This document shows positions 12,701-35,640 of a DNA stretch of 64,000 nt, in pieces. The notes below the pieces were generated by a model, which made no database searches, had not been told where the DNA came from, and worked only from the letters and a program-made list of their open reading frames with translations. The stretch comes from Acholoe squamosa (taxonomy: Eukaryota > Annelida > Polychaeta > Phyllodocida > Polynoidae). The DNA is taken from assembly GCA_949317995.1 (NCBI GenBank), contig OX439036.1, positions 4,705,207-4,769,206 on the forward strand, read 5' to 3'. Every line of letters begins with the position of its first letter. The first letter of the stretch is position 1. The position numbers were made by a program, and so were the translations under genes.

Positions 12701-12895
12701 TTATACATTGATAGATTCTTTCATACATTTTTTAGATATAGCTTTAAATTTATCTTTGTCCCTAATATTTCTGGTGTCTGTTTCAAGATTATTCCATATT
12801 TGGGCACATAGACATTCAGGAGATTTTGTATAAGCTGCACAATTAATTTTCATATAATTTAATAAACCTTCATTACCCGCAGAGTCAAAGTTCAA
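12701..12895 (-). pseudogene. Probable C-terminal end of the LINE ORF2
   Basis: The minus-strand frame reads YTKSPECLCAQIWNNLETDT and then a FKAISKKCM-type tail before a stop. This is the usual end of CR1/L2/Jockey-type ORF2 proteins (a ...G..WNsLp...r....FK...K block). The main LINE copy breaks off at 16285 after RITRFSSAPVL, a motif that in these proteins stands shortly before this block. The most economical reading is that the two pieces were once continuous and that the 12.9-16.28 kb material was inserted between them. The inference rests on motif order only. Confidence 0.6.
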
Positions 12896-13104
12896 AAAGG
12901 AGTAGAATATAAATGTGCTGCTTTGTGGAATTCCCTTGGAAATGAATACAGAGAAATTGAAGAGTATTCAAGGTTTGGTGATAGGCTGAGAGTGATGTAT
13001 GATATCCAGCCTCCATAAATACTATAATAATTCTCCACATATTTTACACCATCAAAACAAATTCTAAAGTGGAATAGATAATAAACCTACTGAATTTATG
13101 CTCC

Positions 13105-13321
13105 TTCGTTTACTAACCATATTTATTTATGGTACAGGCCATCAAACACCATTTAAATTGTGCAAAGAAGTTACTAACAACTAGTGATCCATATTTAACA
13201 AATGTTATTGTACTTCAACTAAAGAAATATCTGGATTTAGAGACATTTATTGTCCACTGGATGAAAAACAGGCATGACCTAAGGGTGCATAGCCTATCCT
13301 ATGTACAATCAAAACTGAATA

Positions 13322-13330
<9 letters not shown>
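13105..13330 (+). pseudogene. Unidentified plus-strand coding-like segment, possibly a tyrosine-recombinase fragment
   Basis: An open plus-strand frame runs from about 13117 to the TA microsatellite. It contains LNCAKKLLTTSDPYLTNVIV and then LKKYLDLETFIVHW. Its pattern (AK..L, then a polar loop, then a hydrophobic ...LKK.LDL... helix) recalls the start of the recombinase core in DIRS-like elements. It lies at the 3' side of the DIRS-like gag-RT-RH genes but on the opposite strand. CTAAC and a CAG upstream could also be read as a branch point and splice acceptor of a host exon. Identity is unresolved. Confidence 0.3.

Positions 13331-13379
<49 letters not shown>
13325..13379. repeat. (TA)n microsatellite
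   Basis: About 27 TA units. It abuts the 27-bp direct repeat that ends at 13395 and marks the place where the DIRS-like RNase H region breaks off. Confidence 0.95.
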
Positions 13380-13382
<3 letters not shown>

Positions 13383-13395
13383 CAGGAGCACTAGA

Positions 13396-14965
13396 TATAA
13401 CTCATAGACATTAATATTTCTATGGTGAACTCTCAAAATATCCAACTTTGGAGATTTTACAAAATGACCACAAAGGTCATCTAAAGGATCCGTATCTGAC
13501 CAAGTTCCATATAAATAATCTGAACCATACCAGGCACCAAACCCCTGAATTGAAGAGTCAGAATACACAGGGGTACATTCGTTATCATTCAAAATGATAT
13601 TTCTACAATTAAAAACATTGCAAAAATTTCTCCACCATTCCAAGTCCTTGTGTATCTCTTCATTAAGTCTAACCACACCCCTGTTCCTGGCTCTAGCACA
13701 CAAGTCGAAGACACGGCGACTGAACGTTCTGCCTCCCCTAACTACTTGGGAGCAAAAAGACATTAAGCCCCCAATTTTGATTTTTTAGATACATATGCCC
13801 TACCTATACAATCCTCTATGGCCAGTTTCATTTTTTCCACCTTACTCTGGGGGAGTGATAGCTCCATAATAGTAGAGTCAATACTTATACCAAGGAAGAC
13901 ACATTTTTGACTAGGTTCAGTTACTTTTTCAGTGGATATTTTGAAACCCATAAACTCCATACACTCGATGAGAATATTCCTCTGACGTCTACATTCTTTC
14001 TCAGAATTTGCAATAATTATGAAGTCATCCAGATAATTTACAATCCTTTCAACACCATAGAACTTTGCAACCGAGACAATAAAATTTGAAATCCTGTTAA
14101 AAATATATGGAGCACACTTCAACCCAAAGGTTAGGCGGTTACTCTCATAGAATTCTGCACCCCTACCAAAATCCCAGCGAAAGCCCTGATACTTGATGTG
14201 TGGACCGTAAACTCCTATAGACCGGTAAGCTGATTTCAAATCTACCACACTCATAAAGTCGTCTTTATCTAACTGAGATGTAACAGTGTTAATAGAATTG
14301 TATGAAAATGGACTAGAAGTAGTACTCATATAATTATTTATAGAGATTCCATCAGGCATACTACAGTCAGTGATAGGTCTCAATTTACCATTTGATTTCT
14401 CTACACCGCCTAGTGAATGTATGCATCTGGGCTTGACGACCGACTTTGTAACCAAGCCCTGGGCTAACTCCTCCTCAATAATGCTACACATCTCGTTATA
14501 AAATCTATCTTCTAAAATAGACTTATAATTTTTACAATCATATGCTGTATCACATCCCGGGTCAATTATTTTGAAACCCTCGGTAAAACCACACCATAGA
14601 AAATCAGATTCAATCTGATTGATATTAATAAGGTCGGACTGTCTAAGAAAACTAGCAAGTCGACACGGGAGTATTTGAGCCTTCCTACCATAAATGAAGT
14701 GCTCGCACCTACATACACCGTTAATACAACTATCATAGACCCTGTTGCTGGGTCTATTTAAACATTCCACCGTAAAAAGTGGTTCAACCTCACCCTGTAC
14801 TGGGCCACTATAAGAATTAAATAAATTCTTTGACAATTCACAAGAATCATACATATTTACACTATCATTATTGACATTTCCACCCGGAATGATAGAAACG
14901 GGAGGCTCAGGAAGGTCTACCATACATACTACACTAGAATCAGGCATCAAACTATCAGAACCCAA
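13396..14965 (-). pseudogene. DIRS-like reverse transcriptase and RNase H region
   Basis: RT blocks appear in order on the minus strand: IHSLGGVEKSNGKLRPITDC (near 14360-14420), SVVDLKSAYRSIGVYGPHIK (near 14190-14260), LTFGLKCAPYIFNRISN, then the catalytic NYLDDF near 14020-14040. RNase H follows with VYSDSSIQGFGAWYGSD near 13530-13570 and a HRNINVYEL block, where homology stops next to the TA microsatellite. The block spacing matches DIRS/Ngaro RT-RH. The region is spread over more than one frame and its 3' end is lost, so it is treated as a fossil. Confidence 0.78.
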
Positions 14966-14992
14966 TGCAGGACCTTGCCCAAGTGAATTTTC

Positions 14993-16021
14993 CTAGTCTT
15001 TCTTGTTCTTTTGACATTTGTCTTTACCATGGTTTGACATACCACAAATCTCACAAATATGACGATACCTGCACGGGTCCTCCCTGCAACCCTCGGCCCT
15101 GTTGAAGGCATAACAGGTTCGGTTGGATTGTTTTGATTTGAAAGACTTAGGCTTAGACCCACCCGCCTTCTGCGCTTGCACCGTTCCGTCATAAGACAGG
15201 TGCCTCAGAATATCCTCACTTTTAACATCGCCAAACGATCCAACACCCTCAAAATTAGCCCTATTCTTGACCGCTGAATCGTATGCTACGAGAGCCTTCA
15301 ACGTGTATATTTTAGTAGAGGCTTTTTCTACCAGAACTTCAATATGCTTAACCACATCGAACACATCTTCACCCTCCTCTAGCAACTGTTTAACCATTCT
15401 AACGTTAACGATCAGTAGTTTCTCGATACTGTCCATTTTTTCACCTTTTTTCAAGAAATTTTTCTGGTCAAACGTACCTCTAGACTTTGTAGCATGTCGA
15501 CGATTACTCCTTGAGGCATTAGATCCAATAGAAACCGACGAATCCGTGGAAACACTACGGTACGAAGACGATCTACTCGAAGATCCAAGATGGCGACGAC
15601 CTGCCCTGTCGCCGTGGAGACCCCGGTAGTCAGGCGAGCGCTGCTGGCCACGCCCCCGTTGCTTGGTTACCATGTTGACTGTGGAATGTTTATCAACACC
15701 ACCACGTGCACGACCCGTCTCCGCCTCGCCAGTCGCCGTTGAAGTACTTGCTCGATTAACCGCCTGGTTCTCCAATAAGGACCGGATATCTTCGAGCTGT
15801 TGCTCCATGCGAGTAGTACGCTCCTCCAGCTCCCCGATATACGTCTGGTCAACAGGTAAATCCAATGAACCCCCAGTAGCGGTTGGGGAAGATGATCCAT
15901 GACCACCCCCATTGGAATCTACACTGCTCGATATCCTAGAGTTGGCAATATTCCCTGGTTTTTTAGGTGACTTCTTGGTCTTGGACCTTCGTGTGCCGCT
16001 AGCTGTTCCTTTCCTACCCAT
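14993..16021 (-). CDS. DIRS-like gag, 342 residues
   Basis: Putative nucleocapsid protein. The N-terminus is basic (MGRKGTASGTRRSKTKKSP), followed by a Ser/Gly-rich linker, a short coiled segment (ELEERTTRMEQQLEDIRSLL, about residues 65-85), an Arg/Ser-rich stretch, and a helical middle. The C-terminus holds a CCCH finger (CYAFNRAEGCREDPCRYRH, CX8CX4CX3H) followed at once by a CCHC knuckle (CEICGMSNHGKDKC). This CCCH-CCHC pair is characteristic of gag proteins in DIRS/Ngaro-type elements. ATG at 16021 is preceded by a TATA promoter. The frame is open throughout. Confidence 0.8.
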   Translation of the reverse strand: MGRKGTASGTRRSKTKKSPKKPGNIANSRISSSVDSNGGGHGSSSPTATGGSLDLPVDQTYIGELEERTTRMEQQLEDIRSLLENQAVNRASTSTATGEAETGRARGGVDKHSTVNMVTKQRGRGQQRSPDYRGLHGDRAGRRHLGSSSRSSSYRSVSTDSSVSIGSNASRSNRRHATKSRGTFDQKNFLKKGEKMDSIEKLLIVNVRMVKQLLEEGEDVFDVVKHIEVLVEKASTKIYTLKALVAYDSAVKNRANFEGVGSFGDVKSEDILRHLSYDGTVQAQKAGGSKPKSFKSKQSNRTCYAFNRAEGCREDPCRYRHICEICGMSNHGKDKCQKNKKD

Positions 16022-16139
16022 AATGATAGGTTAAACACCGTATTAACTTGGAAAAACGGATAAAACCGTTAAAATTTCCGGCACCACCCAGCGTGGTGTG
16101 TGCCGCTCTGAGGAAACACGCCAACTGACGGTTAATTTG

Positions 16140-16190
16140 GATCCCGCAGCTTATATAGGCGCTGGATGTTTACGGTGACGTCACACATAC
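16140..16190 (-). promoter_or_regulatory. Promoter of the DIRS-like element: CRE and TATA box
   Basis: On the minus strand a perfect palindromic CRE (TGACGTCA, about 16175-16182) lies about 20 bases before a TATA box (CCTATATAAGC, about 16150-16160). The gag ATG is about 130 bases further downstream. The arrangement is a standard pol II core promoter; activity is inferred. Confidence 0.6.
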
Positions 16191-16270
16191 CAATGCGCAC
16201 CCTGGAGGAAAAATAGATCCAACCACTGCACATATTAATTATATATATATACACGGGTGTATATAGTCCC

Positions 16271-16297
16271 ATATATATATAATACAGGAGCACTAGA
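16271..16297. repeat. 27-bp direct repeat flanking the DIRS-like element
   Basis: 16271-16297 and 13369-13395 are identical: ATATATATATAATACAGGAG followed by CACTAGA. Both copies sit next to TA-rich sequence. The right copy overlaps the last LINE codons (SSAPVL) and the left copy abuts RNase H sequence. It could be a terminal repeat of the element, a duplication at insertion, or a repair product. Confidence 0.8.
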
Positions 16298-18950
16298 AAA
16301 TCTTGTAATTCTTACAGTTGGTTTGATATATTCTTCCATTGTTGACCTTTTATAAGCAAGCATTTTTATATGAAGTAATCTTCTAGCCTCAAGTTTGGGC
16401 CTCTCTGTATCTCTATGTACAAGATTGGTTGGAGTCAATACGTGGACATCTAAACAGGTTTTTCAACACTTATTTGCAACCTCTGAAGTACTTGTAACAG
16501 CTCAGCATTAGCTCCATTGTATAATATATCACAGTAATCGATAATTGGTATAATATGCATTTTATACATTCTTATTCTTGCTGTGGTAGATAGATATTTC
16601 CTAGTTTTATACAAAATTATTGATTTGAACCGAACACATTTTATAACATTTCTCACATACATATTAAAATTCATTTCTTGGTCTAGGGTGACCCCTAGGT
16701 ATTTGTATGATTGGACATTCATTAAAGTTTTACCATTTAGAACAATTTTTGGTTTCTGTATTCTTTTCAACTTAATTGCTGAAGCAAAGGTCACGATTTT
16801 TGTCTTAGATTCAGTTATTGTAAGTTTGTTAGCCAAAGACCAGAGAGAAAAAGAATTAAGTGCAGTAGAAAGTTCATTTGTTAATACATCTAGATTTTTT
16901 CCTGATACATATAGTACAGAGTCATCCGCATATAACAAAGTTTTATGTACATCATTATCAGAAATGCAGTCATTAATATACAATAAAAAGTACAAAGGAC
17001 CAAAAATTGAGCCCTGCGGTACTCCACATGCTAAATTAGCACGTTCAGAACGTATATGGTTGGCTATGGAACATTGTTGTCTCCTTGATAGGTAATTTTC
17101 AATTAAAGTTAGATTTCTATTTCTGACTCCATATTGTTCAAGTTTCTTTAATAAAATCAAGTGATTTACTGAATCAAGGCTTTTTTTATATAGATAAAAG
17201 CAGCCATTGTTATATTACCTTCATTTCTATTTTTTAATACATCATCAACTAGTACTCAGATAGAGTCAAGTGTAGATTTACATTTCTGGTAACCTCCTTG
17301 GTTTTTTGATAATATATCAAATCTTTCTAAATGTTCACTTAATTTATTATGTATGAGCCTCTCAAGAATTTTGCCAGGTACTGGTAAGACACTAAACGGT
17401 CTAAGATTTGAAACATTGGACTGATCCCCTCCTTTTGGTAAAGGTGTCACCATGGCAATTTTTCAGCTATCCGGAATTTGGCCTGTATTTGTAATCAAAT
17501 TAATGATTTTTATGAATTTTTGGGGAAACTTTAACATGTTTTTTTAAATATATCAGTAGATAAATAGTCGATAGCAGATGACTTAGATGTGTCTATGTCA
17601 GATAAACATTTTATAATTTCTTCGTCTGTAAAGTTCTCATCAGGCATATCCACCTCGCAGCGGGTACCCTTGAAATTAAAAATAGTTTGGTGTTGTTCAG
17701 CAAGTCTAGGTCCAATCTCTGCGAAAAAATTATTTATATAAGTAGAAGTATCATTAATCGAGATTACATGGCCATTTTCATCTGTTAACATGATTGATTT
17801 AATATTGCCTTTTTTGAAGGTAAAATGTCTTTCATAGTGCTCCAAAATTTCTTAGAATCTTTCTTCAAAACCTCAGATAAATTGGTATAATAAGCTTCTT
17901 TAGCCAGTTCTATTCCTCTATTCACTTTGTTTCTACACTCCCTGGCTCTGTGCCACAAGATGACATCCATGTTTTTTCTAGCTAATTTTAATAGAACATT
18001 TTTATCGTTGATCCTTTCAAGCAGCTAATTAGACATCCATGGGCTAGGTTTATCTACAACTTTAAAACTTTTAACAGGGCATTGTAGGTCAAGCATTCTC
18101 TTAATCATATTCTCTACTATAGTCCAACAAACATTTGGATCATTTGATTGATTGAAATAATTCCAATTACCCTTTTCTAGGTCTGAATAAAATTTTTCTA
18201 AATCTAGCTTATTGTATGATCTTCCGAGAAAGGTTCTAAAATTCTTCTTTATATGTATTTGGGATTTTAGAATATGTACCGGTAAATAATCAGACAGGTG
18301 TACGTTCAATGGACCACTAGAGGTGATAGTATCACAGTTTGAAAAAATCAAATCTATACATGTGTTTGTACCTGAAGTGATTGTGACCTCATTAACGAGT
18401 TGTACCAGGTCAAAATGACCGAAAATTTCTATAAGGAGCTGTTTATCTGGTGAATTGGTTAGTATATTTACATTGAAGTCTCCAAGGATAAAAATATCAT
18501 ATCCATCCAGATTATCAATTTGTAGTAGTAGAGCTCGCATAGTATTACAAAATTCCATAAGGTTACCTGAGGGTGGTCTATAGATATTACACACAATACA
18601 TTTTTTGTTTGCACCTTTAGCTGATAATAACCATTGAACTTCTATATTTTCATTAATTCTGTTTAAGGCTTTAAACTTGTCTATTGAACATGATAGACTC
18701 TCATTGACGTATGCACACAGACCACCACCTCTATATATACTGATAGGGTCTTGGCGAAAGAGATTATATCTTGGAAAGCTATATAATTTGCTACAATCCA
18801 TCTCATTCAACCATGTCTCTGAAAATAGTATAATATCTATAAAACTATCATTTAGTTCCTCACACTCCTGACATTCATATGTATATAATAGAGAAACCTT
18901 TTCTAAATTTGTTTTTTAAAGACGTGTCGATTGTCAGCAAACTGTATCAT
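16285..18950 (-). pseudogene. LINE ORF2: APE-type endonuclease and reverse transcriptase, decayed
   Basis: The endonuclease runs from about 18950 (SLKNKF, then IILFSETWLNEMD) through GGLCAYV, CNIYRPPSG, ILGDFNVN, CIDLIFSN and LSDYLPV (18025-18870). The last motif is usually SDHLPV, so a histidine thought to be catalytic is Tyr here. RT follows with NLRPFSVLPVPGKILERLI and FDILSKNQGGYQKCKSTLD (17256-17453), GVPQGSIFGPLYFLLYIND and LLYADDS (16900-17040). The tail DYCDILYNGANAELLQVLQR is CR1/L2/Jockey-like. At least five frameshifts or stops separate the open pieces 18810-18025, 17970-17785, 17845-17531, 17453-17256, 17160-16450 and 16438-16285. The copy is dead but well readable. Confidence 0.9.
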
Positions 18951-19181
18951 GTATACATATCTGATCTCTCTACCCGTGCATGTTACAATAAACCAAGCAA
19001 TTATAAGCCATACGCGATAAAAAATTACATACCCCCCTCCCTTCACAGGCTTACAGCTCTTATGGCTACCCATGAGAATCAATGTATGAGTTTTGCAGTT
19101 AAAGTTTAAGGGCTATAATATTATTTCAATTAGGAACTAAACATGTATATAACAAAAACATTTTTTCAGTTCAGAAAGTCA
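18951..19181 (-). other. LINE inter-ORF spacer
   Basis: About 230 bases between the ORF1 stop at 19182 and the first recognisable ORF2 residues. No further domain is seen. Confidence 0.6.
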
Positions 19182-19364
19182 TTATTCTTCATCTGGATTT
19201 CCAGGTGCTCTGGTTAACTGTACCCGAACTTTCTGTAGGATTTGTCCCATCAGATTCTCACCCTTGATATTACCAGAAGTACATTGGTTGGCCTGACCGA
19301 AATGCATCTTCACGCCCCATATCGAGTGGAAGCTAGCCTCATACAAGTTCTTATCCCCAGTGGA

Positions 19365-19598
19365 GATTAGATAGTCTCTCATACACAGTATAGAGAATTT
19401 TTCTTTGTTAATTTCTTGCATGACTGTGGCAGCCATCTTGTTCCATTCCGCTGTAGGTCTAATTTTCCTAGCTTCATACATGATTAGATAGTCTCTCATA
19501 CACGGTATAGAGAATTTTTCTTTGTTAATTTCTTGCATGACTGTGGCAGCCATCTTGTTCCATTCCGCTGTAGGTCTAATTTTCCTAGCTTCATACAT
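19365..19598 (-). repeat. 117-bp in-frame tandem duplication inside the NADAR domain
   Basis: 19365-19481 and 19482-19598 are direct copies differing at about one base (ACACAGTATAG versus ACACGGTATAG). The unit is exactly 39 codons and repeats the segment with the conserved W...VM...KF motif. The near identity means that it arose late. Confidence 0.93.
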
Positions 19599-20353
19599 GA
19601 TTTCTACCGGGTCTTCTAGCTTCTTTAAGGATAGGACTAGGTTCTTCTGACCACATGCTTGGGCCTTGGACACTTGATACGCCTGCTCAGAGCTGTTGTA
19701 TTCTACTCCTCTATAGGACATCTGACAGTGGTAAAGGTTGTACAGTTTGTGGTGGTGTGATTTGAACATAAGTTTGTCTGGCATTTCAGCTTCATTCGCT
19801 CTCTGCATATTTAAATCTTTGTAGGGTAGTTGGTGGAGTTGACTGAGTTTGAAAGGTTTCTTGTCTGTTATGATCTTACGTTGTCTCAACTGTGTGTTGT
19901 ACCCCTGCCTTTTTGCCAAGTACTCACCCAGCTCGTCCCCGATTGATACATGTTTGTATAAGAACTTGCCTTTTAGATTCTTCAGGAGTTTCATCAGTTT
20001 CGCCTTTGTATATGCATTATTGAACACTATTTTAATCGGTCAAAAGGTCTTCTTGTTTATATCATGGGCGCCGCCATCTTGGTTTCTTGTGACGGGTATA
20101 CCTGGGCGACTGCAACTTTGTATGCTTTCGATGCCGAAATCCGCGCACACGTCCCTAAATAGTTGGCTGATCTTTTCCAATAAATTTTCATTATCGGATT
20201 CCTCTAGGCCTTTAACTACGACAATTTTTCTCTTGATGTCTTCGTCTATTTTCTCAAACCTCTGTGCATGTTTTAATAACAGTTCTGTTTGGGCCTGAAT
20301 ATTCTGCGTGTGAGCCGTCATGGCGTCTCCTGTCTCTTTGACAGTGGTGGATA

Positions 20354-20357
20354 CTGT
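20354..20357. other. Target-site duplication CTGT, left copy
   Basis: CTGT at 20354-20357 and again at 37567-37570 flanks the outer ends of the two LTRs. Both lie in LINE ORF1 codons reading DTV, which proves that one element spans the interval. Confidence 0.9.
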
Positions 20358-21705
20358 TGTCATACTAGTTATTGGCATGATCAAGTTGTCATATGAGAAA
20401 TATCATATGACTAGTGGTGTATGGAGTAAATACATCAAGCTCATAGAAAATAGTGTTATTTCCAGTTGTCACTGGTTTATTCAGCTTTAGGCAACATGTA
20501 AGAAATATCAATCATACAGTGGTTAGTATGTAGGTAATTTGTACATACAGTAAACATACAGTAATTTATAAAGTACAATGTTCTGTTCCACTCCACCTGT
20601 GAGGTATTAATAATACAGTGTCCAGCATGTTTCTAGGTGGGTTCCCACACCTAGCTCCTGACCTGCTGCTTAGAGGAATAATGTAATAATGAATAACTTT
20701 ACCCTCTGGTGGAAGTCTTGAGGAAGATAGCCCCTGGCCACTAATGATAGAAAACAGTGCCTGTCTAGCATAGTTTCACCATAGTGCAGTGGTATAGCAG
20801 GTAGCAGGAGATGACTGGAGATGTTACCTCTAGAGCGGTTCTTGGTGATCTGACTGTCTAGGAGGTGCAGCCAGGCTATTTGTAGCAAATCTTGGAAAAG
20901 CACCTCCAGACTGACTGGAGCCAGTAGCATTTGCCTAACTCTACAATTGTTTGAGGGGAGTCTTTCATGTGTCACAGGGGGACAAAGGACCCCCATGGAC
21001 GCCGCTGTGTCCCCCTTTGTCTTAGTCGGTTCTGCATCTTCAGACCCTCATAACTCAGTCGTTTATGCTTTTATAACCGCCATTTTGCGCATGCGCGGAG
21101 GTGAATGTGCCAAGTTTATAATGCCCGCTGGATAGGCGCGTAACTTGCGCTGGTTCGTCTGTAGTCCATTCGGAGGTTGATTCAGTCTCCATGGCGTAAC
21201 TTCCTTAATAATGGGAGTTCCGCCTTGATCTTGGGCTCATTCTAACCATCTAATTATGGGCTTTCCATAAATGCTTTGATATTTGACCTAGGTTGCTCAG
21301 GAGCGACGCTAGAGCGACCGGAAGGTTATGGCATCGTGCTTATGTAACCCATTGTTCAGTCATTAGGGTGCTCAGACACTCATGACGGCGTCAGCGGTGC
21401 TCAGGCACCCGTGACGGCCGGTTGCATTCACTTACAAGTTATTAATTTGTGCATTGGACCATGAGGTCGCACACTGAGACCCTTATTCTTATTATATTGT
21501 GCAGTGAACCATTAGGTCGGAGCCTTTGATGTCACAAACTCTGTCTAACTGACTGTGGCTGGTGTGCAGTGGGGCATGAACGCTCTTATACAAAGTTTGA
21601 GCGCTCTTATAACTCTTAGAACCAACCTATGTATTAATTTCATAGATATTCTTTGATTAATACAATAATATGTTAGAATTTATGGAATAATAAAATGGTA
21701 TATCA
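20358..21705 (-). repeat. 3' LTR of the env-bearing element
   Basis: Begins TGTCATACTAG and ends TATATCA on the plus strand (TG...CA on both strands). A minus-strand AATAAA signal lies at about 20476-20481. Same length as the partner at 36219-37566. The short open frames in it occur in both LTRs and have no recognised product. Confidence 0.93.
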
Positions 21706-21712
21706 TAGAATA

Positions 21713-21727
21713 CTCCCTCCCCCGAGA
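21713..21727 (-). other. Polypurine tract of the env-bearing element
   Basis: The minus strand reads TCGGGGGAGGGAG a few bases before the 3' LTR start at 21705. This is the position and composition of a plus-strand primer. Confidence 0.75.
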
Positions 21728-22049
21728 AAATGCGAAACTCCGTCATTTCGCCGAGGGAATGTACAATCTGCATATTTTTACCTAATTTTGGAGTTATATA
21801 CTGTTTGTAAGAGGATTTGAAGAAATGGGGAGTGCTTCAAATGCAATTTTTGTGGTCGAGCTTTGTCAGTATAAACAATTTTCTCCTGGGTATAAGTACA
21901 TTTCCGAGTTTCTATATCTTATCATACCTGAGTGTATTTGCTTATGTAACATCAATTTTGGGTACAATTTTCCATTTTTATGTACAACATACAATTTGGC
22001 AAATAGTGTGCAATTTTGGCATTCAATGTTCAATTTAGCGTGCAAATTG

Positions 22050-22400
22050 AACATAAATGACAATTTTTAGTGTGCAAATTTACAATTTCGCGTGTAATTG
22101 CGTTCAATTGACAATTTTAGTATGCAAATATATAATTTCGCGTACATTTGGCAATTTTAGTATGCAAATATATAATTTTCGCGTACATTTGGCATTTTTA
22201 GTATGCAAATATATAATTTTCGCGTATATTTGGCAATTTTAGTGTGCAAATATATAATTTCGCGTACATTTGGCAATTTTAGTATGCAAATATATAATTT
22301 TCGCGTACATTTTGGCATTTTTAGTATGCAAATATACAATACGCGTTCAATTCACAATTTTAGTATGCCAACATATAATTTTGCGTTCAATTGATAATTT
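22050..22400. repeat. About 41-bp tandem repeats in the 3' region
   Basis: Seven to eight imperfect units of the type TTTTAGTATGCAAATATATA plus ATTTCGCGTACATTTGGCA. Open frames over this stretch in several phases are a product of the repetition. Confidence 0.88.
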
Positions 22401-22499
22401 CTGTATGGACATGTATAATTTTGTGTACAGCTTGGTTACACATAGAAATGTTGATTTTTGTAAAAACCTGATTTTAGTGTATCACTTGGGTACAGACAT

Positions 22500-22790
22500 A
22501 CAGTATAATGTGCAACATACAATTTAAGTGTGCAAATTGGGTACAAACTTACAAACTAGTGTGCAACATACAATTTTAGTGTGCAAATTGGGTACAAGCG
22601 TACAATCTGGTGTGCAACATACAATTTTAGTGTGCAAATTGGGTACAAACGTACAATCTGGTGTGCAACATACAATTTTAGTGTGCAAATTGGGTACAAA
22701 CGTACAATCTGGTGTGCAACATACAATTTTAGTGTGCAAATTGGGTACAAACATACAATCTAGTTTACACTATACAATTTATGGGATTTG
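22500..22790. repeat. 51-bp tandem repeats in the 3' region
   Basis: About five units, GTGTGCAAATTGGGTACAAA then CGTACAATCTGGTGTGCAAC and ATACAATTTTA. The unit is 17 codons long, so it gives periodic open frames on both strands. Neighbouring copies are almost identical, as in slippage or unequal exchange. Confidence 0.92.
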
Positions 22791-22799
22791 AGACAAATT

Positions 22800-23566
22800 T
22801 TTCCGAGGACCGGAAAAACAAAGTACTTTATGTACAATGGGCTTGTTTGTCTCTGAGTTACTCTTTGATTTTGCTATATGGGTGTATTAATTGGCAATTT
22901 CGGCAGTGGGCCGCTGCTTAATTGACTTTTCCCTAGCCTTTTTGAGTATGTGTCCCTGAAAGAGATTATTTGGTGAGTATCTTAAGTAAACATTTTTCAT
23001 GTCAACAATTTTCTCAACAATTTTTTTTTTTACATTCATTTTTCCAACAATTTTCTTGGATACCTAAAGTGTGTTACTTTAAGTAAACCTTGGTATAGTA
23101 TACAAGTGCTAGTGGGTACAAAAACTGTCTTAGTTATCTACCTGCATTCATGTATATTAATGTTAGATTTGTACAATTTACAATTTGTAGTTTGCAATTT
23201 CGCAATTTTGCGCGTATATGCGCGCATTAATCATCGATTTTGTGAGAATACCATAGATTTTCATATTATACATCAACAAGTGGCTGTGTATATATATATA
23301 TATTTTTTTTTCTAATACTTTGATAATTTCATTGACAGTGGAGGTGTGTCAGGAGTGAGATGTGAGTCTCCTCCCTGATGTGCTCATGCAGTGGTGGCAC
23401 TTGAGGTGTTAGGTGCCAGATTCTGGCATGTGTCTGTGTCAGTGCCTAGCTTGGTGTCAGTGGACAGTTCAGGGTGGGGGGGGGTGTGTGTGTGTGTGTC
23501 CATTTAAGGAGTGTGTGGCTGGTATTGGAGTATCAGTTCCTCTCTGGAAACCTCTGCTGTAGCACC
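22800..23566. other. Non-coding 3' region upstream of the antisense ORF
   Basis: AT-rich, with a short TA/T-rich run at 23285-23312 and a GT-rich run at 23475-23505. If the antisense ORF is expressed, its promoter would lie here; TATATATATATT near 23288 is the only core-like signal. Confidence 0.4.
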
Positions 23567-24046
23567 ATGGCCCATCTACAAGCTCTCTTTGCTTTGCCTG
23601 TCCCCCAGGTGATGGAGGTGGGGAGTCCGGTTAGGGCCCTGGTGGAGGCTAACCAGACCATCCACTATGGGTACATAGTGAGGAATTTCAAGGAGATCAT
23701 TGAGCATGGTGATGTGTTGGTCTGCAATTACTCCTGCCACTATTTCTTAGGCTCAGCCTTGCGTCGGGGGGCCACTGTGGCCCTTCTGGCTAGGGCCTTG
23801 GGTAATATGGGGTTCTGGCCCATGGACTATAACTTCGGGCCGCGGGAGCGAGTCCTATGGGATTATCTGTTGGCAGCATCCCTCCTCGATCTTGCGGCAT
23901 CCGGGGATCCATTCATGGCCGCCGAGTATGGACTGGGGTTGATGGAGGCCCGGCTTGCTGAGTGGGAACATGACCATGGCCACATGATTGGATCGGACTC
24001 GGACTCCCACTCTCCCATCGATGTTGAACCCGAGGATCTGTGGTAG
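23567..24046 (+). CDS. Antisense ORF within the env-bearing element, 159 residues, function unknown
   Basis: A plus-strand frame opposite to all retroelement genes. ATG at 23567 has a strong vertebrate-type context (AGCACCATGG), the same as env. The protein starts MAHLQALFALPVPQVMEVGS, has a hydrophobic, helix-prone middle (ATVALLARALGNMGFW; WDYLLAASLLDLAASG) and an acidic tail (SDSDSHSPIDVEPEDLW). I recognise no family. GC content and codon use are higher in G+C than in the flanking repeats, which suggests real coding history. Antisense genes near the 3' LTR are known in some deltaretroviruses (HBZ), but no homology is claimed. Confidence 0.5.
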   Translation: MAHLQALFALPVPQVMEVGSPVRALVEANQTIHYGYIVRNFKEIIEHGDVLVCNYSCHYFLGSALRRGATVALLARALGNMGFWPMDYNFGPRERVLWDYLLAASLLDLAASGDPFMAAEYGLGLMEARLAEWEHDHGHMIGSDSDSHSPIDVEPEDLW

Positions 24047-24193
24047 GATCCCGACTGACTGAAACCTAGGGTGTAAACCCGCCATCCCAAAGGCCCTTTT
24101 CAGGGCTGGCAAATTGTCCGAAAAGTTCTGAATACTGTCTCTGATATGTTGTCTCCTGGTGGTGGACTGGGGGCAGTCTAGGCTGAGGGCAGT

Positions 24194-24715
24194 CTAGGCT
24201 GTTTCCACAGTCACCGGGGAGGGCTGGTGGTTTAGAAAATTAGCAATGGTCTGCATGTTTGACCTTGCGGTCTCCTGTTGTTCGTCAATAATTATATCTG
24301 TTGTATTTTCCAGTGCTGTCATGGTCACCGGGCTGGTGCCACAATCATTCTGGAGAAGCATGGAGTAGTACAGTCCTTTGTTTTTAAGGGCTGGTATAGT
24401 ACTGAACCTAGTGCGCCAAGGTAGGTGTATCACCTGAGGGAGGTGATAAGCAAATTCTCCTCTCTGTGTTGTTATAACTGCTGGTCCATTCCAGGTAAAT
24501 ATAGCCTTAGTTAGTGGGAAGGTTTTAACCACTATATCCTTATAGGTAGGGGCAGCTGCTGATTTAATCTCATCAAATTCATGTGGTATTGGCCTCAAGG
24601 GTAGCGCGAAGTTTGAGTCTCCATAATATATTTTAAAATATATTGTGGGATTTGTGCGCTTGGCCACATTTTTCTTGCCACAGTGTGTCTGTGCAAATTT
24701 CTTAAGGTACTTCAT
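24194..24715 (-). CDS. Small sense ORF behind env, 173 residues, function unknown
   Basis: ATG at 24715 lies six bases after the env stop codon (env ends at 24722). The protein starts MKYLKKFAQTHCGKKN, is basic at its N-terminus, contains a proline- and aromatic-rich middle (FTWNGPAV, VIHLPWRTRF) and a more acidic tail, and has no signal peptide or membrane segment. No family is recognised. The tight spacing suggests expression from the same RNA as env, by reinitiation or splicing. Confidence 0.6.
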   Translation of the reverse strand: MKYLKKFAQTHCGKKNVAKRTNPTIYFKIYYGDSNFALPLRPIPHEFDEIKSAAAPTYKDIVVKTFPLTKAIFTWNGPAVITTQRGEFAYHLPQVIHLPWRTRFSTIPALKNKGLYYSMLLQNDCGTSPVTMTALENTTDIIIDEQQETARSNMQTIANFLNHQPSPVTVETA

Positions 24716-24721
24716 TATTCT

Positions 24722-26815
24722 TTAGGCTGAGTAGATGGTCAGGGTGAATAATATAGCAATTATCAGGGTGTGGGTTTCCTGAATTGTGAGGAAAGGGGTG
24801 TGGGTTTCCTCTGTAGGGGTTAGTTTGGTAGGATTTTTATCTGGGAGCAATTTGTGTAAGGGCAGCTCGGTGACTAGTCTGAATGCTTTGGCTGTAGGCA
24901 GGTAGGCTACAGTCCCTCCTAGTCTGTACAGTTTGAGTAGTATGTATACTATAAAAATGTGAGCTGATATCCCTAGGATGAGTCCTAAGCTTTGGAAGAT
25001 TGGATGCTCTGTAACTCGACGTAGGTGTGATTCTACGTAGCGTGTTTCCATTTCCCTATCAAGGTTGGAGGCATCTTTCAATAATGTTTTGGCAAAGGGC
25101 TCCAAATTTAGTTGAGTAATATCATCCATGATTGGATTTTCCTGTAGTTTTTCTAAGGTTCTAGAAAGGTTTACTACTGGGAAATTTGGAAGATTCTCTC
25201 TTTCATCTGGTTTGGTTTCGGAAATTTGGTTAAGTGCTGCCATGAATGGTAAATTGATTGTCTTGAGAATGTAATGAAATGATAAGGTTGAGTTACAGGG
25301 CAACCTTGTGTTTGGAAGAGAAAATTCTCCTACACTGATTGTGCACCCACAGGGTACACCTATGATTGAGTAGGACTGGGCTTTTCGAGTTTCAGACGTT
25401 TTACCATGGCAGTTGATAAAGTAATGGGGTTCATTAGTAGTGACCAGATACTCATCTTCAGAAATGGAAATAGCATGGGTGGTAGGTGCTTGCAGTGGTG
25501 AAACTGTAAACTTGCAATGTTCCTTAATCTGTTGAGCCTGGTTAGTAAAAATGGCTACAGGGCATGTAGGCCTGTGTTTATAGATTCTACCATTTACATC
25601 TCTGCATACCTTTACTGTAGTACCTTCACATGCCTGCATATCTGCTGAGTCCAATTCGATGAATAATGATTCGTCGTAAGATACTGCTAGAAACTCAGTT
25701 GTGGTTTGCAACTTGGTGACTCCTCTGGTGGGGGTCTCCTGTGTGTCTATAGGCATTGGTGATGTAATCATTTGGTACAGTTTGAAGGTTGAGGTGGTAG
25801 ATTGTATTATAATGTCCAGATGAATATATATGTGGTGAGCTGAATAAGTGTATGAGGTCAGCTTCTGTGAATAATAGAAATCTAAGTCATTAATTGTGAC
25901 TTGTGCTCCAGGGTGTGTAATCCTAAGTTTGTTATTAATGTCAATTAAGTATCTAGCAAGGTCTGAGGGTGGTACTATATCAGGGGTTAGGATTCCTGAT
26001 GATAGCATCCTCAGGGCTGCATTTGTCCTTTGCAGTGATTGAACTGTATTCATTCTTGCTGCTATGATAATTAATGCATCATTTAATACTTGCATTTTCT
26101 CCCTTTGAGTTTTCTCGTGCCTTGAATATGAGTCAAGTGACCTGGACATGTTAAAGGCCCACAGGTTGACGGTGTCACCTATGGTGTTGATTGTGCTGTC
26201 TAGTACCTTCTTATCTTGGATGTATGCTTTAACAAACTTATCTTGTCTGTCTGTGATCTTTTCAATGAGATTAGCTGCTTCCTGATCTTGTTTAGCAAAT
26301 TTTCTTAGTATTTCATCTATGTTCTTGAGCTGTCCCATTACTTGGTTTACATCTTCTACTGTGGCTAGACCTAGCACACCGCGAAACAGGGGTGCTAGAA
26401 AGCCCAGTATGGCCTCTCTTTTGGCCTTGTCCAATGTGTTTATGGGGTTGGATAAGAACAATTTGATGGAGGCTAATGTTTCATTTATCTCCTTGTCTGC
26501 AATTTCCAGCAAGGTGTCAAGCTCCTTGGCTTGTTGGATAATTTGACCAGAGGTATGATCTTGTAGAGTAGGAGTGGTCAACTGGAGTATTCTATCCCTT
26601 ATGGATCCTTGGGTAACGGGTGCCCGAGGTATCTTGTAGGGGATAGCTAACAACAGTGTTGTGGTTGTATGTCCATTGACCAATGGTTGAGGGCTAGGTT
26701 TGAATACTACTCCTATGTTTTGTCTCACCACAGGTGTATAACCTGCAGTAAGTAGTTCTATAGTATATACTAACAGCATAGTTAGCAGTATGGGTGAAAC
26801 TCTCAGTCTCCCCAT
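24722..26815 (-). CDS. env-like fusion glycoprotein (baculovirus F / errantivirus type)
   Basis: The frame stays open further upstream, but the ATG at 26815 (AGCACCATGG context) gives a protein of about 697 residues starting MGRLRVSPILLTMLLVYTIE, a clear signal peptide. Around residue 135-160 the sequence KREAILGFLAPLFRGVLG followed by ATVEDVNQV resembles the fusion peptide of F-type proteins and is followed by long heptad-rich helices. A cysteine-rich middle (near residues 390-520) and N-glycosylation sites (for example NMS, NST) follow. A membrane anchor (LGLILGISAHIFIVYILL) lies near residue 615-635 with a cytoplasmic tail. The fold assignment is by pattern; the env position after integrase supports it. 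Confidence 0.8.
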   Translation of the reverse strand: MGRLRVSPILLTMLLVYTIELLTAGYTPVVRQNIGVVFKPSPQPLVNGHTTTTLLLAIPYKIPRAPVTQGSIRDRILQLTTPTLQDHTSGQIIQQAKELDTLLEIADKEINETLASIKLFLSNPINTLDKAKREAILGFLAPLFRGVLGLATVEDVNQVMGQLKNIDEILRKFAKQDQEAANLIEKITDRQDKFVKAYIQDKKVLDSTINTIGDTVNLWAFNMSRSLDSYSRHEKTQREKMQVLNDALIIIAARMNTVQSLQRTNAALRMLSSGILTPDIVPPSDLARYLIDINNKLRITHPGAQVTINDLDFYYSQKLTSYTYSAHHIYIHLDIIIQSTTSTFKLYQMITSPMPIDTQETPTRGVTKLQTTTEFLAVSYDESLFIELDSADMQACEGTTVKVCRDVNGRIYKHRPTCPVAIFTNQAQQIKEHCKFTVSPLQAPTTHAISISEDEYLVTTNEPHYFINCHGKTSETRKAQSYSIIGVPCGCTISVGEFSLPNTRLPCNSTLSFHYILKTINLPFMAALNQISETKPDERENLPNFPVVNLSRTLEKLQENPIMDDITQLNLEPFAKTLLKDASNLDREMETRYVESHLRRVTEHPIFQSLGLILGISAHIFIVYILLKLYRLGGTVAYLPTAKAFRLVTELPLHKLLPDKNPTKLTPTEETHTPFLTIQETHTLIIAILFTLTIYSA

Positions 26816-28323
26816 GGTGCTTGTGTAAAGCAAGTTTGCTGTTTAAAGTCTTGTCAAATTTGTAGTGATTTTGGTGCTGGTAAAGTCTAAGTGTATGGTG
26901 TAACACTTTAAATGAAGTGGTTCAAACTGTACCTTTGCAAGATTGAGCTGTCTTGGCAATATGTCCGGTGAGTCTATAGAGATTGACAAGTAAATGGTAA
27001 GGTCAGGTTGAAGGTGAAGTAGGTGTGTTCTTTATCCTAGTGCAGTCTCTCCTAATGGAGAAGTGGGCTGGCTAATTCCCAAGTGGGGTCCTGTAGACTT
27101 GTGTTCCAGACTGCAGCTGGATGAAGACTGATGGTGGGCTATGGTCCACAGTGCTTCTTATGTAGCCTACCCTACCCACATCCATTGTGGGCCTGGTATT
27201 GTTTCTCTGGAGCAGGTGCACCTAATCTCCAGTGTCTGCTACTGTGGGGGTCTATTGTGTAATCTGTGTACTGGTAATTAGCTCCTCCTGTCATCCAGGA
27301 CAGCCATTCATGACCGTCTAGACAGTTGTCTGAGGGTAGCTTATAAGGTCAATTGATCTCTATAGACTGCTGTGTTGGCATAGCGCGCTCTTTCATGTGG
27401 GGATTAGGCTTTAGACACTCCATTGTGTTACCCTTACTCTTCTTAGACTTTATCAGGTTAGAGACGGGAATATCTTGTTAGGACACACCAGGATCATAGT
27501 ACAAGAGTCTGATTTTAGTCTGTACTAAGATTCTGATACCATGCACAGTCTTAGGATGTACTGGGATCTTAGTACACTTGTGTGTGCACTGGACCATGAC
27601 ACTCACCTCCACAGGTGTATGGGCCAATTAGAGCCCTGGTCACTGGACCATGACACCTACCTGTGCATACATTATTGGGGTCAAAGGTGGGATGGTGAAC
27701 CCACTCCATCATTTAGTACTTATATTTACATTAAATGATACATTTACTCCCTTATTAAACAACACTTGGCTAAAATGAAAACATCATTTTGTAGGCATTT
27801 ATCTATTCTTTAATCTTGTGGGTTCATATTTATTAGCAAATTTAACAAAAAAATAGGAAATAGATTTTACTATACCAGGACTAAGGGGAAGTTTATACAT
27901 ATAGCCATTTCTCAGAGAATATTCTGATTTTAGTTCTATAAAAAAGTGCATATGTTAAATATAGTCCCCATGTACTTCAGGTGACTTTAGGATTATGTAT
28001 TTTTGATGAAGAAGTTAGAGAAATTTGATAATAAAACAGTGTACTAAGTTCTTAGTACACCCCATGATCCATGGACTATCATTGAATCTTAGGGCGTACT
28101 AAGAAACAGGTTAGTCCTGAACCTGTTTATGTCTGCTTTACTTGGGGGGTCCCAGTCTTTGACCCTTTCAGAGGCAATAACCTACTGATATATTTACAAA
28201 TTTGATTGGCTTTATATACATATAAGTAATTCATTATCAGTCACACATGTCTTATGTGTGGATGAAGAGAATTTGTAATACTTTTTGAAAATCTTATGTT
28301 CTTTTGGTATCTCAATCTTGTTT
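26816..28323 (-). other. Non-coding gap between integrase and env
   Basis: About 1.5 kb without a supported gene. In env-bearing relatives the env RNA is made by splicing, and an acceptor could lie here, but I cannot choose one. Short GTACTAAG/CTTAGTAC motifs recur at 27490-27580 and 28040-28100. Confidence 0.5.
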
Positions 28324-31300
28324 CTAATTTCTTGAAACTGCACCACACCTAGATGTCTTTCTTAGTATGTGGTGTGCAGGCCTAGGCTTGATAGGGCCTA
28401 TGCCTGTGGTTTCTCTTGTAAGGGTGATATCATTTTTGTTCCTTACAATTTTGCTGTAGTATTTGGCCTCATGTGGAATAAGCCTGTGTGCAAATTCATT
28501 GTTTCTGACAGCCACAACCTTTTTCAGTCTGTCTATGTGCACTGGTCTGGCCACCAATAGATTGGTGTCCAAGTTTTTGAGTTTGGCACTTGTCAAACTA
28601 GGTCTATCTACTACAACATATGGTCCCATAAAAAGGGGTTGAAGTTTCTTACACTCTGTGTTGGTCAGGATTCTTGGTATGTTTAGGTACACCATGTCGG
28701 TGACCTTGATTTCCTGTGGTGTAAGTTTCTTATCATATCTATCTTTCCTTTCCTTTTGTAGCTTGGCGACCCTTTCTATAGCTTTCCTCCTAGAGGTATC
28801 CTGATTTGTTATCATGTTAGCTACATGGTCTGCTACGGTGGATATGTCTTCCTGTATTCCCAGCCCTAAGTCCATTGGGGTGGCTGGGTTCCTTCCATGG
28901 AGTAGGAAGAAAGGGTGAATCCTGTGGTTTGGGATTCAGTGTTGTTTAATGCAAAGGTTATGGGTTCAATAAATGAATCCCAATTGTTTTGGTGCTTTGA
29001 GCAGAATGCTCTGAGCGCTGTGCCGATGCTAGCATTGAATCTCTCTACAAGCCCATTTGATTGTGGCCTGTATGGTGAGGAGAATTTATGTTTGATCTTG
29101 AGGTGTTTAGTTAACTTTGTGAACTTTGCACCTGTATAACATGTTCCATTGTCTGTTTGAAGAGTGGCTGGTGTTCCATGATGACAAATTATATTCTTGT
29201 AGAACTCTGCTGCTGTTGTTTCAGCTTTTAAGTCAGTAGTAGCCCAAGCTGTTGCATATCTGGTAGCATAATCTATGCAGACTTGTATATGTTTGTTTCC
29301 CCTGGCAGTTGTGGGAAGTGGCCCCACCGCGTCTAGGTTTAGGAACTTCATTGGTGAAGTCATGTACTCTCTCACTGTCATTGGTGTTTTGTGTGAGTGT
29401 ACTTGCCTTTTTGCTGTGAGGCATGTGTGGCAGGTGGAAACATATTTTGTTGTGTCTGCTAGCATAGACTTCCAATATACCCTAGGTCGGAGTGCTGACA
29501 GCATCCTACTTGAACCAAGATGGCCGCCAGTAGGATGGTCGTGGAAATACTGTAGTGTACTTGTTACCCATTGCTGTGGTATAACAATTTGAAGTGGTAC
29601 AGTATTGGTTTTTCTCCAATTTATGGGGCATATATGGACTAATGTACCATTTACCAAGGTGTATGTCTGGCCTTGGTTGATAATTCTATTTCCTTGTGCT
29701 TTTGGTGCAGGCAAGGTCCCATCCTCAAGATATTGTATGAGGGGCAATAGTTCCTTGTCCTTCCTTTGTTCCAAGCCAAGGTTTGTACCTGAGATGGATG
29801 TGTCGGGAATCTGATCCAGTAGTTGATTTATATCTAGCACATGTTGTTTTATTCTGTCTCTTTCTTTTTCTTTTTCATCGACTATTGGCCTATCTTGTGC
29901 CTTTTGTTGGGGTGTGTCACTCTTGTTTTGGTGTGTAGGCTCCTTTGGGGGGCCTATTCTTGCCTTGGTGGGAGTGGCAACCTTTTTCTTTAAAGGCACA
30001 ATTTGCTTTTTGTCATTCTTCCTTGTCTCAGAGTTCTTTGATTTAGTAGATGCAGTGTCTTTTGTGACATTTTTCCTGGCAGGTGGGGTTTTGGTAGGTT
30101 TGTTCCCTGTGACCTTTTTCTCATTTAGAATAGTTTGTGATTGTGTGGGGGGTTTTGGTGTGCCCTCCTGAATCATTTCTCTAGTCTTTGAGCGTGTGGT
30201 CATAGGACACAAATGGTTTGATGTTTCCTCTCCCTGCATTGATTCAAAGAATCTGACTGATTTGGAAGTTGCTTGAGTGATAGCATATATTGTGTCTTCT
30301 GAATCTTCATCATCTGAGTCAGGTGGGGTGAAGGGTGGCTCCTTAGGAGTTGCCTTCAGCATCTGATTGAGTGATGAGAATTCGATAGGCTCGAAGTCAT
30401 TATCTGGAAAGAGTTGTGAGTATTCTCTCTCACAGTGGCAAAACACATAGTGTGTAGATTGCTTCAAGATACCCCTAATGGGTGTCTCTGGCCTTTCAAT
30501 GGTGTTGGGTGGATCATCCCTTTTGAATGGTACTTTCTTTGTTACTTTTGCAAACTTGGTTCTACTGGCTGCTCTAACTCTCCTTGGTGGGGGTGGAGGG
30601 TTAGTCATGGGTCCAGAATCTGGGTATTCTCTTCTAGACATAGCATCTGGTGGTGTGTTATCATCACCTTTCACGTGTTGGATGGTGAATGAAAATTGTT
30701 GTATGTCTAGAGCCCATCTGGCCCATCTATGTGTGAGTCCTGTATTGGTTAGTAGTGGGATCAGGGCTGCATGGTCTGTGTATAATTGGAAGTGTCTAGT
30801 CTCTAGATAGTGTCTGAAATGTAATACTCCATACACTACTCCCAGTAGTTCTCTCTCTGTGGTATTGTAATTTCTCTCATGTTTGGAGAGGGTTCTACCT
30901 GCAAAGGCTACTGGTCTGAGCACTCCTTCATTATCTCTCTGTGAGAGTACAGCTCCTAAACTCACATTGGAAGCATCAGTTGCCAAACTTTCTCATAGTT
31001 TGGATATCTGAGAAGAGCATTGGTACAGAGGGCATGCTTTAAAGTTTTGAAAGCATTATCTGCATCCTCTGTCCAGACAAATGCTTTGAGATGTGTCTGT
31101 AGATCATACAATGGTCTAGCAATTTGGGCATAACCTTTGATAAACTTTTTGAAGTATTGACATAGGCCTGTGAAGGATCTGACATTTTTGACTGATTTTG
31201 GTGTTGGGAAGGTTTTGATTGATTCCACCTTTGTGGGAGATGGTTGCAGTCCCATGGGTGTCACTCTCATTCCCAAGAAGTCTATTCTGTCTATGAAGTA

Positions 31301-33047
31301 TTCACATTTTGATTTCTTCAGTTTGAGTTTACCAACTCTTAGGCTGTTGAACACATCTTCCAGGTCATGGAAGTGTTGTTCGATTGATGGTGATAATACC
31401 AATATGTCATCTAGGTATGGTAGGGCACATTTGTACTTGAGTTTGTTCAGAATTAATGTGACTAGATGGCAGAATCCCGCCGGTGCCGTCGCTAAACCCA
31501 TCGGCATCCTTTCATAGACATATTTTTTTGTCATTTGCTATGAATGCAGTTTTATGCTGGTCCTCCTGTCTTATAGGAATTTGAAAAAATCCCTGTTGGG
31601 CATCTAGCTTACTGAATACTCTTGGTCTGAGTGACCCTATCATGTCTAGAGTGTCATCGGCTCGGGGTGTAGATAAGGCTTGATTTATCGTGTTCTGGTT
31701 CAAATAACGAAAATCTGTGACGAGCCTATGGCCTCCTGATGATTTTTGTACTAAAAAGGATCTGGAAGCCCAGGGGCCCTCGGCACATTCTCTCAGAATG
31801 CCCTGTTGTACTAGCCTTTCACACTCTTCCCCTATTGCGGCCTGTTTTTCTGGTGTTTGTCTATATGGTAGGAAATGACATGGCACTGCTTCAGGTTTTA
31901 CATGTATTGAGTGGGTATACAGGTGTGTAGCACCAATGTCTCCATCTTTTCCTACAAATATATCATCATACTTGGTCAGCAGTGATCCTAATCTATCATG
32001 CTGATCTTTGGATGTGAGCACAGATTTTGGTGGAACATTCTCTTCCAATTCTGGCTCTAGGTCATGTGCCTCACTATGTATAGCAGCTATTTCAGAGAGT
32101 CTGATTGAGTTGGGTTCAGGGTCAGCGTATGTGGACTCACAGTCTGAGTCTGTGTCACTGAATTGAGTTACATCCTCAGGCCGTATGGCTGAGATGGATT
32201 GATCAGTGTGTGGGGTAGTGTCTGACACCTGTTGAGGTTTTTCTAAATCAGATTCCTTGACTTCCTGAAATAGAGCTATGATGGCACCCTTTTTGATTTT
32301 ATGTGGGCGCCTGCTGGTGTTGAGTAACACTAGGGGATGTTTGTTATTTTCCCTGGGGGTTACTGCTGCCCTTTGAACTAGATATGGGGCATTGTTATTT
32401 CTTTGGAGGTTATCTACTACTCCAGTTTTCCCTTGCAGTGATTGAGTAGATGTGACCTTACCCAATACTGCAAGTTCAGAGAATGGAGGGATGGTAAAAT
32501 CCCTCACTGCCCTAATGGGTTTGAGAATTTGTTCAGGATCAACATTAAATTCAATTTGAGATTTTGTAGTGCTTAAGAAATCTGTGCCGAGAACAACGGG
32601 CTGTGTGAGGTTGGGAATTACAGCAAATTGGTATTGGAATCTGACACCTTGGATTCTAAAGTTCAGCATAGCTGAATGTCTAACATGACACACCGATCCA
32701 TCTGCCAAATGGATGTTGATTTTAGATTTCCTCAGTTGGATATGGAATCTCTTTTGGAGATCCATGAGGAATGATTGTCTGACACAGGTGATAGTAGCAC
32801 CTGTATCAACCAAACATTGTACATCTGAAACATCATATAGATTTGCATTGATACAGCCATTTTGAAGAAGTACAATAGAAAGCTTGGTACTCTCACCTGT
32901 ATCCTTTGATGATGAATCTGGTGGGGTGATGTGTATCACTGATGGACGTCTCTGTCTGTTAGATGGTAGATTGGCACTAGCAATTGTCTCTGGTTGGATC
33001 CTTGTTAATCCTGATTGATTGTTTGTTTGTGGGGTGTCACAGTGCAC
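28324..33047 (-). CDS. pol region of the env-bearing element: protease, RT, RNase H, integrase
   Basis: In minus-strand order: protease CLVDTGATITCVRQSFL (near 32790-32840); RT fingers SSGGHRLVTDFRYLNQ and SKLDAQQGFFQIPI; RT catalytic LPYLDDILVLS (near 31390-31425); RNase H ATDASNVSLGAVLS and LYTDHAAL; integrase zinc finger (HDHPTGGH ... CHTCLTAKR), catalytic core LDAVGPLP, TDNGTCYTG and PQSNGLVERFN; and a GPY/F module (LFMGPYVVVDR) near 28600. Between RNase H and integrase stands an unusual Lys/Thr/Pro-rich spacer of more than 200 residues (about 29800-30600). The gene is spread over overlapping frames with about two or three apparent breaks, some of which may be normal recoding. Confidence 0.9.
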
Positions 33048-33070
33048 TGGCCCATCGGCACTGTGACATC

Positions 33071-35261: not shown

Positions 35262-35640
35262 GATGGAGGGTGTGGGGGAAGTGTCTCTGGAGGAGTGGCT
35301 GTCAAAGGCCGGAGCTGGGGTGGAGGATCTAGATGAGGGTGTGGATCCACCCCCTGAGGCAGATCCTTCTTCCCCTGAGGTAGATAGCGTGAGTTGAGCG
35401 TCCTGTAGAGATCCCTGGGAAATGTTGGATCCCTGAGAACTGGTTGTTCCCTGAGTAGACAGGGTGGGAGGTGTGGGGTCTACTGAGTGTGGGACTGTTG
35501 TATTGGAGGCTGATTTGCCTCCTGTGGGCCTCCTAGATCTAGGTGGGAGGGAGACCTCTTCAACAGGCCCCTGACTACGTAAGGTCTTTGTGTGTTGTTC
35601 TGCCAGCTTGACTGATAAGACCTTGATGTGTGGGGTGGAC

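Follow-up and report, generated by a model that had tools for sequence, protein, structure and literature searches.

Why would a protein of a mobile element carry a NADAR domain, and does the protein in question belong to a mobile element at all? The question is raised by a locus in the annelid Acholoe squamosa, within a stretch of 64,000 nucleotides (contig OX439036.1 of assembly GCA_949317995.1, positions 4,705,207 to 4,769,206, forward strand) that is referred to here as the window and within which all positions below are counted. A preliminary description of positions 19182–20357 had read the locus as the first open reading frame (ORF1) of a long interspersed nuclear element (LINE), NADAR being joined there to an L1-type RRM region and an APE endonuclease–reverse transcriptase (RT) frame, ORF2, following downstream. 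Sequence profiles, predicted folds and 14 uninterrupted relatives all back the fusion, and the locus almost certainly encodes a LINE ORF1 protein (ORF1p) of RRM and C-terminal domain (CTD) joined to NADAR. The best explanation as a whole, for which we see about an even chance, is that of a LINE remnant whose type II ORF1p bears a C-terminal NADAR, whose ORF2 is of the APE-RT kind, and whose relatives remove ADP-ribose.

The ORF1 reading frame and its domains

ORF1 is found in two parts separated by a long terminal repeat (LTR) element, with the following layout.

19182–20357, minus strand: remainder of ORF1, comprising the end of the coiled coil, RRM, CTD and NADAR, with the stop codon TAA at 19184–19182
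19902–20231, minus strand: RRM and start of the CTD, RKIVVVKGLEE ... KHVSIGDELGEYLAKRQG, placed by alignment
19824–19889, minus strand: CTD strands preceding NADAR, LRQRKIITDKKPFKLSQLHQLP, placed by alignment with relatives
19215–19775, minus strand: NADAR domain, including 39 duplicated residues
19365–19598, minus strand: tandem duplication of 117 bp in NADAR, units 19365–19481 and 19482–19598
37567–37813, minus strand: N-terminal part of ORF1, ATG at 37813, assigned from the frame and an in-frame join; coiled-coil-like by eye
20358–37566, minus strand: LTR element inside ORF1 with gag-, pol- and env-like frames (labels by eye), LTRs at about 20358–21705 and 36219–37566

The minus-strand frames 20384–20040 and 20027–19182 form a single reading frame whose sole break is an in-frame TGA at 20042–20040, and the whole CTD spans about 19955–19824. 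The Pfam NADAR family (PF08719) matched the window ORF1 with 83.8 bits and E = 2.2e-23, against a curated cut-off of 35.1, and the motifs of the preliminary description were located at 20231–20199 (RKIVVVKGLEE), 19694–19665 (SSEQAYQVSK) and 19364–19332 (STGDKNLYEAS). Structure prediction agreed with that description as well: the NADAR part showed a YbiA-like fold, compared with the Phytophthora (8bau) and E. coli YbiA (2b3w) structures, while the predicted RRM/CTD fold matched the human L1 ORF1p structures 2yko, 2ykp and 2ykq. The order of coiled coil, RRM and CTD is that of type II ORF1p. Pfam Transposase_22, a match to which is a common but not a defining mark of type II ORF1p, was not among the matches at E ≤ 1 of the two window frames or of the relatives P0001 and P0009, and was likewise missing among the 25 of 67 families listed for the 14 relatives.

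Four profiles were built from the 14 relatives, with the window excluded, and run at E ≤ 1 on the six-frame translation of the window, which yields 1118 segments of 30 residues or more. The RRM + CTD profile matched both ORF1 frames (E = 3.2e-07 and 8.8e-05) and no other segment, matches that are independent of NADAR, while the NADAR profile matched the lower ORF1 frame alone (E = 3.4e-35). None of the 1118 shuffled control segments was matched by any of the four profiles. These values are to be read with the caveat that the relatives behind the profiles had first been retrieved with the window's ORF1.

The frame breaks at 20357 because the LTR element inserted there, and the right edge of the span originally described, being the start of the LTR, is therefore an insertion boundary rather than the start of ORF1. 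The frame and the domain order of that description thus stand, while its outer limit does not: on the far side of the insert, a frame beginning MSNTRERSQTRRRG... runs from the ATG at 37813 down to 37567. When the insert and one target copy are left out, the two parts meet in frame (...STEGTLDTV-STTVKETGD...). The N-terminal part, which contains one in-frame TGA (37699–37697), was assigned from its frame and this join and not from similarity, and the coiled-coil profile of the 14 relatives had no match among the six-frame segments. Rejoined, ORF1 comprises 473 codons, counting the stop and the 39 duplicated residues; without the duplication it is about 433 residues long, near the 427–546 of the relatives.

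This copy of the LINE is dead. The 117-bp units in NADAR are identical at 116 of 117 positions (one mismatch), and by alignment the window CTD is without 13 residues that all 14 relatives have. A reading of the two TGA codons of ORF1 as recoded was dropped, ORF2 being decayed too.

Some 135 bp before the start of ORF1, on its upstream side (region 37813–37960), lies ACAAGATGGCGGCACAGGG, which may mark the 5′ end of the LINE and which we take to resemble the YY1 site close to the 5′ end of human L1.

Relatives and co-conservation of the domains

The fusion recurs in other proteins. The read-through ORF1 found P0001 (90% of the query covered, E = 5.2e-20); a two-sequence profile, which scored the 8000 best word-sharing candidates, retrieved P0001–P0008, and residues 140–469 of P0008 then retrieved P0009–P0016. 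The relatives are proteins taken from ENA and Logan records. Fourteen of these 16 are uninterrupted, and in all 14 Pfam NADAR is present and RRM, CTD and NADAR align jointly; P0006 and P0007 stop short of NADAR. The searches used queries containing NADAR and excluded much shorter proteins, so that stand-alone NADARs were filtered out and ORF1s without NADAR mostly missed; the count therefore shows that the fusion recurs and not how frequent it is among ORF1s.

Identity within P0008–P0016 was 38.7% for NADAR, 37.0% for RRM and 46.7% for CTD; within P0001–P0005 it was 75.0% (range 72–81%), 73.3% and 83.2%, and between the two groups 30.7%, 23.4% and 26.0%, respectively. The coiled coil fell below the other domains in all three comparisons. 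Judged from these alignments, NADAR has been retained together with the rest of ORF1, its identity following that of RRM and CTD. In trees of RRM + CTD and of NADAR (15 rows, the window row keeping the 39-residue duplicate), the window branch was very long (7.04 and 2.57) and the placements disagreed; on this evidence the window ORF1 appears close to neither P0001–P0005 nor P0008–P0016.

Active-site residues of the NADAR domain

In the Phytophthora NADAR, the reported ligand contacts are E43, E125, R79, W89, R93, W133 and D130, and the reported catalytic residues of E. coli C7 are E88, K95 and D171 (PMC11543638). We transferred these positions via alignment to 8bau onto a 15-row alignment of the window and the 14 relatives. 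Equivalents of E43, E125 and W89 were present in all 15 rows, and the catalytic lysine (equivalent to C7 K95) in 10, namely the window and P0008–P0016; the window thus keeps all four. All five of P0001–P0005 have Met or Leu in place of the lysine, and FACG replaces their WG motif. Judged by these residues, P0008–P0016 have the look of enzymes, while P0001–P0005 appear altered but conserved all the same.

ORF2 and the origin of the locus

Downstream of ORF1 and on the same strand, as the preliminary description had it, are the remains of an APE-RT ORF2.

16282–18890, minus strand: ORF2, APE endonuclease then RT (PF14529, PF00078), broken by frameshifts and stops
13382–16281, minus strand: DIRS-like element within ORF2, frames 14993–16021, 13763–14965 and 13299–13763, edges approximate
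12701–12859, minus strand: probable C-terminal end of ORF2, CAQIWNNLETDTRNIRDKDKFK, past the DIRS-like insert and, we presume, like the ends of CR1/L2 ORF2

The endonuclease piece matched PF14529 (E = 1.6e-06) and the RT piece PF00078 (E = 1.9e-15). The first APE motif, YYIHMNVRSVRN, stands at 18890–18855, about 290 bp past the ORF1 stop, and the RT is interrupted at about 16282 by the DIRS-like element. Read by eye, the coding sense changes frame about five times and contains at least three stops. A comparison with solved structures gave no match at E ≤ 10 for the RT piece and weak ones for the APE piece (best E = 0.53). From its motifs GVPQGS and YADD the RT would be of the CR1/L2/Jockey kind and unlike L1/Tx1, as would the ORF2 C-terminus, a provisional assignment. 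A stretch of about 500 bp at 12860–13395, which separates the DIRS-like element from the probable ORF2 end, fits neither by eye and is perhaps a small further insert.

ORF1 and ORF2 very probably belong to one element. No further copy turned up in the window, where the RRM + CTD and NADAR profiles matched just the two ORF1 frames and where a nucleotide self-comparison of 16200–21000 had the LTR as its sole long match elsewhere. Scans of viral contigs with A1, A2, the RT piece, P0008 and P0013, and of genome contigs with P0001, returned no locus of the relatives; a scan of viral contigs with P0014 returned one contig (L001, 78.9 kb), which matched P0014 residues 322–466 only, about the NADAR region. 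The loci of the relatives were not retrieved by these scans, and therefore no ORF2 could be read beside any relative.

Two other origins of the locus can be envisaged. The NADAR-ORF1 might stem from a LINE of the Tx1 type known in Crassostrea gigas and have come to lie beside the APE-RT of an unrelated CR1/L2-like LINE. The RT motif, apparently of CR1/L2/Jockey kind, would fit such a pair, as would the Tx1 context of the published NADAR-ORF1s (PMC12477816), yet the first APE motif is kept, so a 5′-truncated insertion would have to begin on the same strand and no more than about 290 bp away from where ORF1 ends; type II ORF1 is moreover reported in CR1 and L2 lineages, and ORF1s are said to be swapped between lineages (PMC4120745). 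We consider two juxtaposed elements quite improbable. Far less probable still is a domesticated or chimeric host gene that combines NADAR with parts derived from a LINE. Although NADARs are reported from many animal groups (PMC11125620), RRM, CTD and NADAR align together in all 14 uninterrupted relatives, the close relatives P0006 and P0007 of P0001–P0005 are cut short, and in the window an APE-RT frame follows directly downstream.

Proposed function of the NADAR domain

NADARs are reported to take ADP-ribose off DNA guanines (PMC11543638), and all NADARs tested in a further study de-ADP-ribosylated RNA guanine (PMC11833690). The shellfish enzyme CARP-1 ADP-ribosylates DNA at guanine; the roles suggested for it are innate immunity against DNA viruses, the regulation of NAD+, or both (PMC8053099). 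We propose that the ORF1p of undamaged relatives would most likely form a trimeric coat on the element's RNA and would carry NADAR into the retrotransposition particle, where the domain would strip ADP-ribose off guanine bases of the element RNA or the new cDNA and reverse a modification made by host ADP-ribosyltransferases. The element's own RNA or cDNA would be the natural NADAR target because the domain is joined to an RNA-coating ORF1p, and an enzyme of the CARP-1 type is a candidate for the kind of host adversary. A hydrolase function in the P0008-type relatives seems reasonably likely, while counter-defence as the main role is plausible but somewhat doubtful. A broader proposition is rather unlikely, namely that NADAR-ORF1 is a widespread conserved type, common to two or more LINE superfamilies, including Tx1 and a CR1/L2-like one, which exists because hosts guanine-ADP-ribosylate retrotransposon RNA or cDNA and of which one sub-group has turned reader.

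Several observations weigh against a LINE with a de-ADP-ribosylating ORF1p. At two ligand contacts, neither of them defining for NADAR membership, the window differs (D130 to His, R93 to Ala); D130 is also missing in 4 of the 9 proteins P0008–P0016, and at the W133 position three of these nine have Tyr or Phe, with Trp in the other six and the window. P0001–P0005 retain NADAR without the lysine and the WG motif, and catalysis is therefore not the sole reason for keeping the domain. The number of relatives is uninformative on how often ORF1 is without NADAR, and the window locus, the one copy seen with both ORFs, is what the pairing of ORF1 and ORF2 rests on.

Two alternatives concern function, and since others concern origin, the likelihoods given here are not mutually exclusive. 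NADAR might mainly degrade small molecules, such as ADP-ribose-type signals or toxic metabolites of host defence, instead of nucleic-acid adducts. In line with this, riboflavin intermediates are given as the substrate of E. coli YbiA (PMC11543638) and viral NADARs have been proposed to favour soluble ADP-ribose derivatives, but the same source also favours macromolecular targets for the NADARs of eukaryotic RNA viruses (PMC9503650), and the RNA-binding fusion partner would point to a nucleic-acid substrate; we regard this alternative as unlikely. Equally unlikely in our view is that in at least part of the family NADAR serves as a binding module, which would aid packaging or localization by recognizing a modified RNA end or nucleic acid that carries ADP-ribose. 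The 72–81% identity of the domain across P0001–P0005, all five without the catalytic lysine and WG, would suit such a role, whereas all nine of P0008–P0016 and the window keep the equivalents of E43, the lysine and E125.

Comparison with known systems

The preliminary description knew of no NADAR-bearing ORF1, a statement that is contradicted by several Tx1 LINE families of C. gigas in Repbase, whose ORF1 proteins have an apparent YbiA-family NADAR (divergent matches) and for which RNA-intermediate processing has been suggested as the role (PMC12477816). The window fusion therefore has a precedent. It shares with these families a LINE ORF1 apparently holding NADAR and, going by their description, differs in that their ORF2 is Tx1 (L1 superfamily) and that of the window apparently CR1/L2-like in its motifs. 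Among the papers listed by literature searches on NADAR with LINE ORF1 or retrotransposons, PMC12477816 was the one recognized as reporting NADAR in a LINE ORF1. Some Ectocarpus Gypsy elements also bear NADAR; they are alike as retroelements that acquired the domain and unlike as LTR elements, with a different protein and lineage (PMC12477816).

Coiled coil, single RRM and CTD stand in the order of type II ORF1p, as in human L1 ORF1p and the CR1 and L2 lineages; exchange of ORF1 between lineages is reported, and no NADAR is named in the part of the source consulted (PMC4120745); the window ORF1 differs by its C-terminal NADAR and by the lack of Transposase_22 among its matches. Compared with the NADAR/YbiA hydrolases 8bau and 2b3w, the window has the full domain and most active-site residues, but its NADAR is fused to an RNA-binding retrotransposon protein, is internally duplicated and is without D130 and R93. 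LINEs with other added enzyme domains are known, namely CR1/L2 ORF1 with an esterase (type IV; PMC4120745) and TRAS LINEs with a viral helicase (PMC5563155); both domains are unrelated to NADAR, and the helicase is located in ORF2. What the present locus and its relatives add is a fold-level match, co-conservation, a sub-group without the catalytic lysine and, provided that ORF2 is correctly assigned, another LINE context besides Tx1.

NADAR is a further domain among the ORF1 types of LINEs and, should ORF2 be correctly assigned, its presence here suggests that an enzyme-bearing ORF1 was swapped between LINE lineages. ADP-ribosylation of nucleic acids is known in animals, though to our knowledge not as an established weapon against mobile elements. 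A retrotransposon whose RNA-coating protein bears a domain that removes ADP-ribose would hint at a conflict of this sort, and since undamaged proteins with the same fusion exist, a role in evading host defence is testable.

Inserted elements and other features of the window

The LTR element within ORF1 is 17.2 kb long, its LTRs being 98.2% identical over 1349 bp, with the target duplication CTGT at both ends. Its env-like frame (label by eye) occupies 24722–26833 (703 residues), and two runs of tandem repeats, with units of 40/41 bp and 51 bp, lie at 22063–22827. The element within ORF2, which we take to be DIRS-like, carries the 16 bp ATACAGGAGCACTAGA and TA repeats at both edges; long target duplications are not expected of DIRS elements. 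Elsewhere in the window, at 1535–4417, a frame of 960 residues, which has a CCHC zinc knuckle towards its end, is gag-like by eye and belongs to another element.
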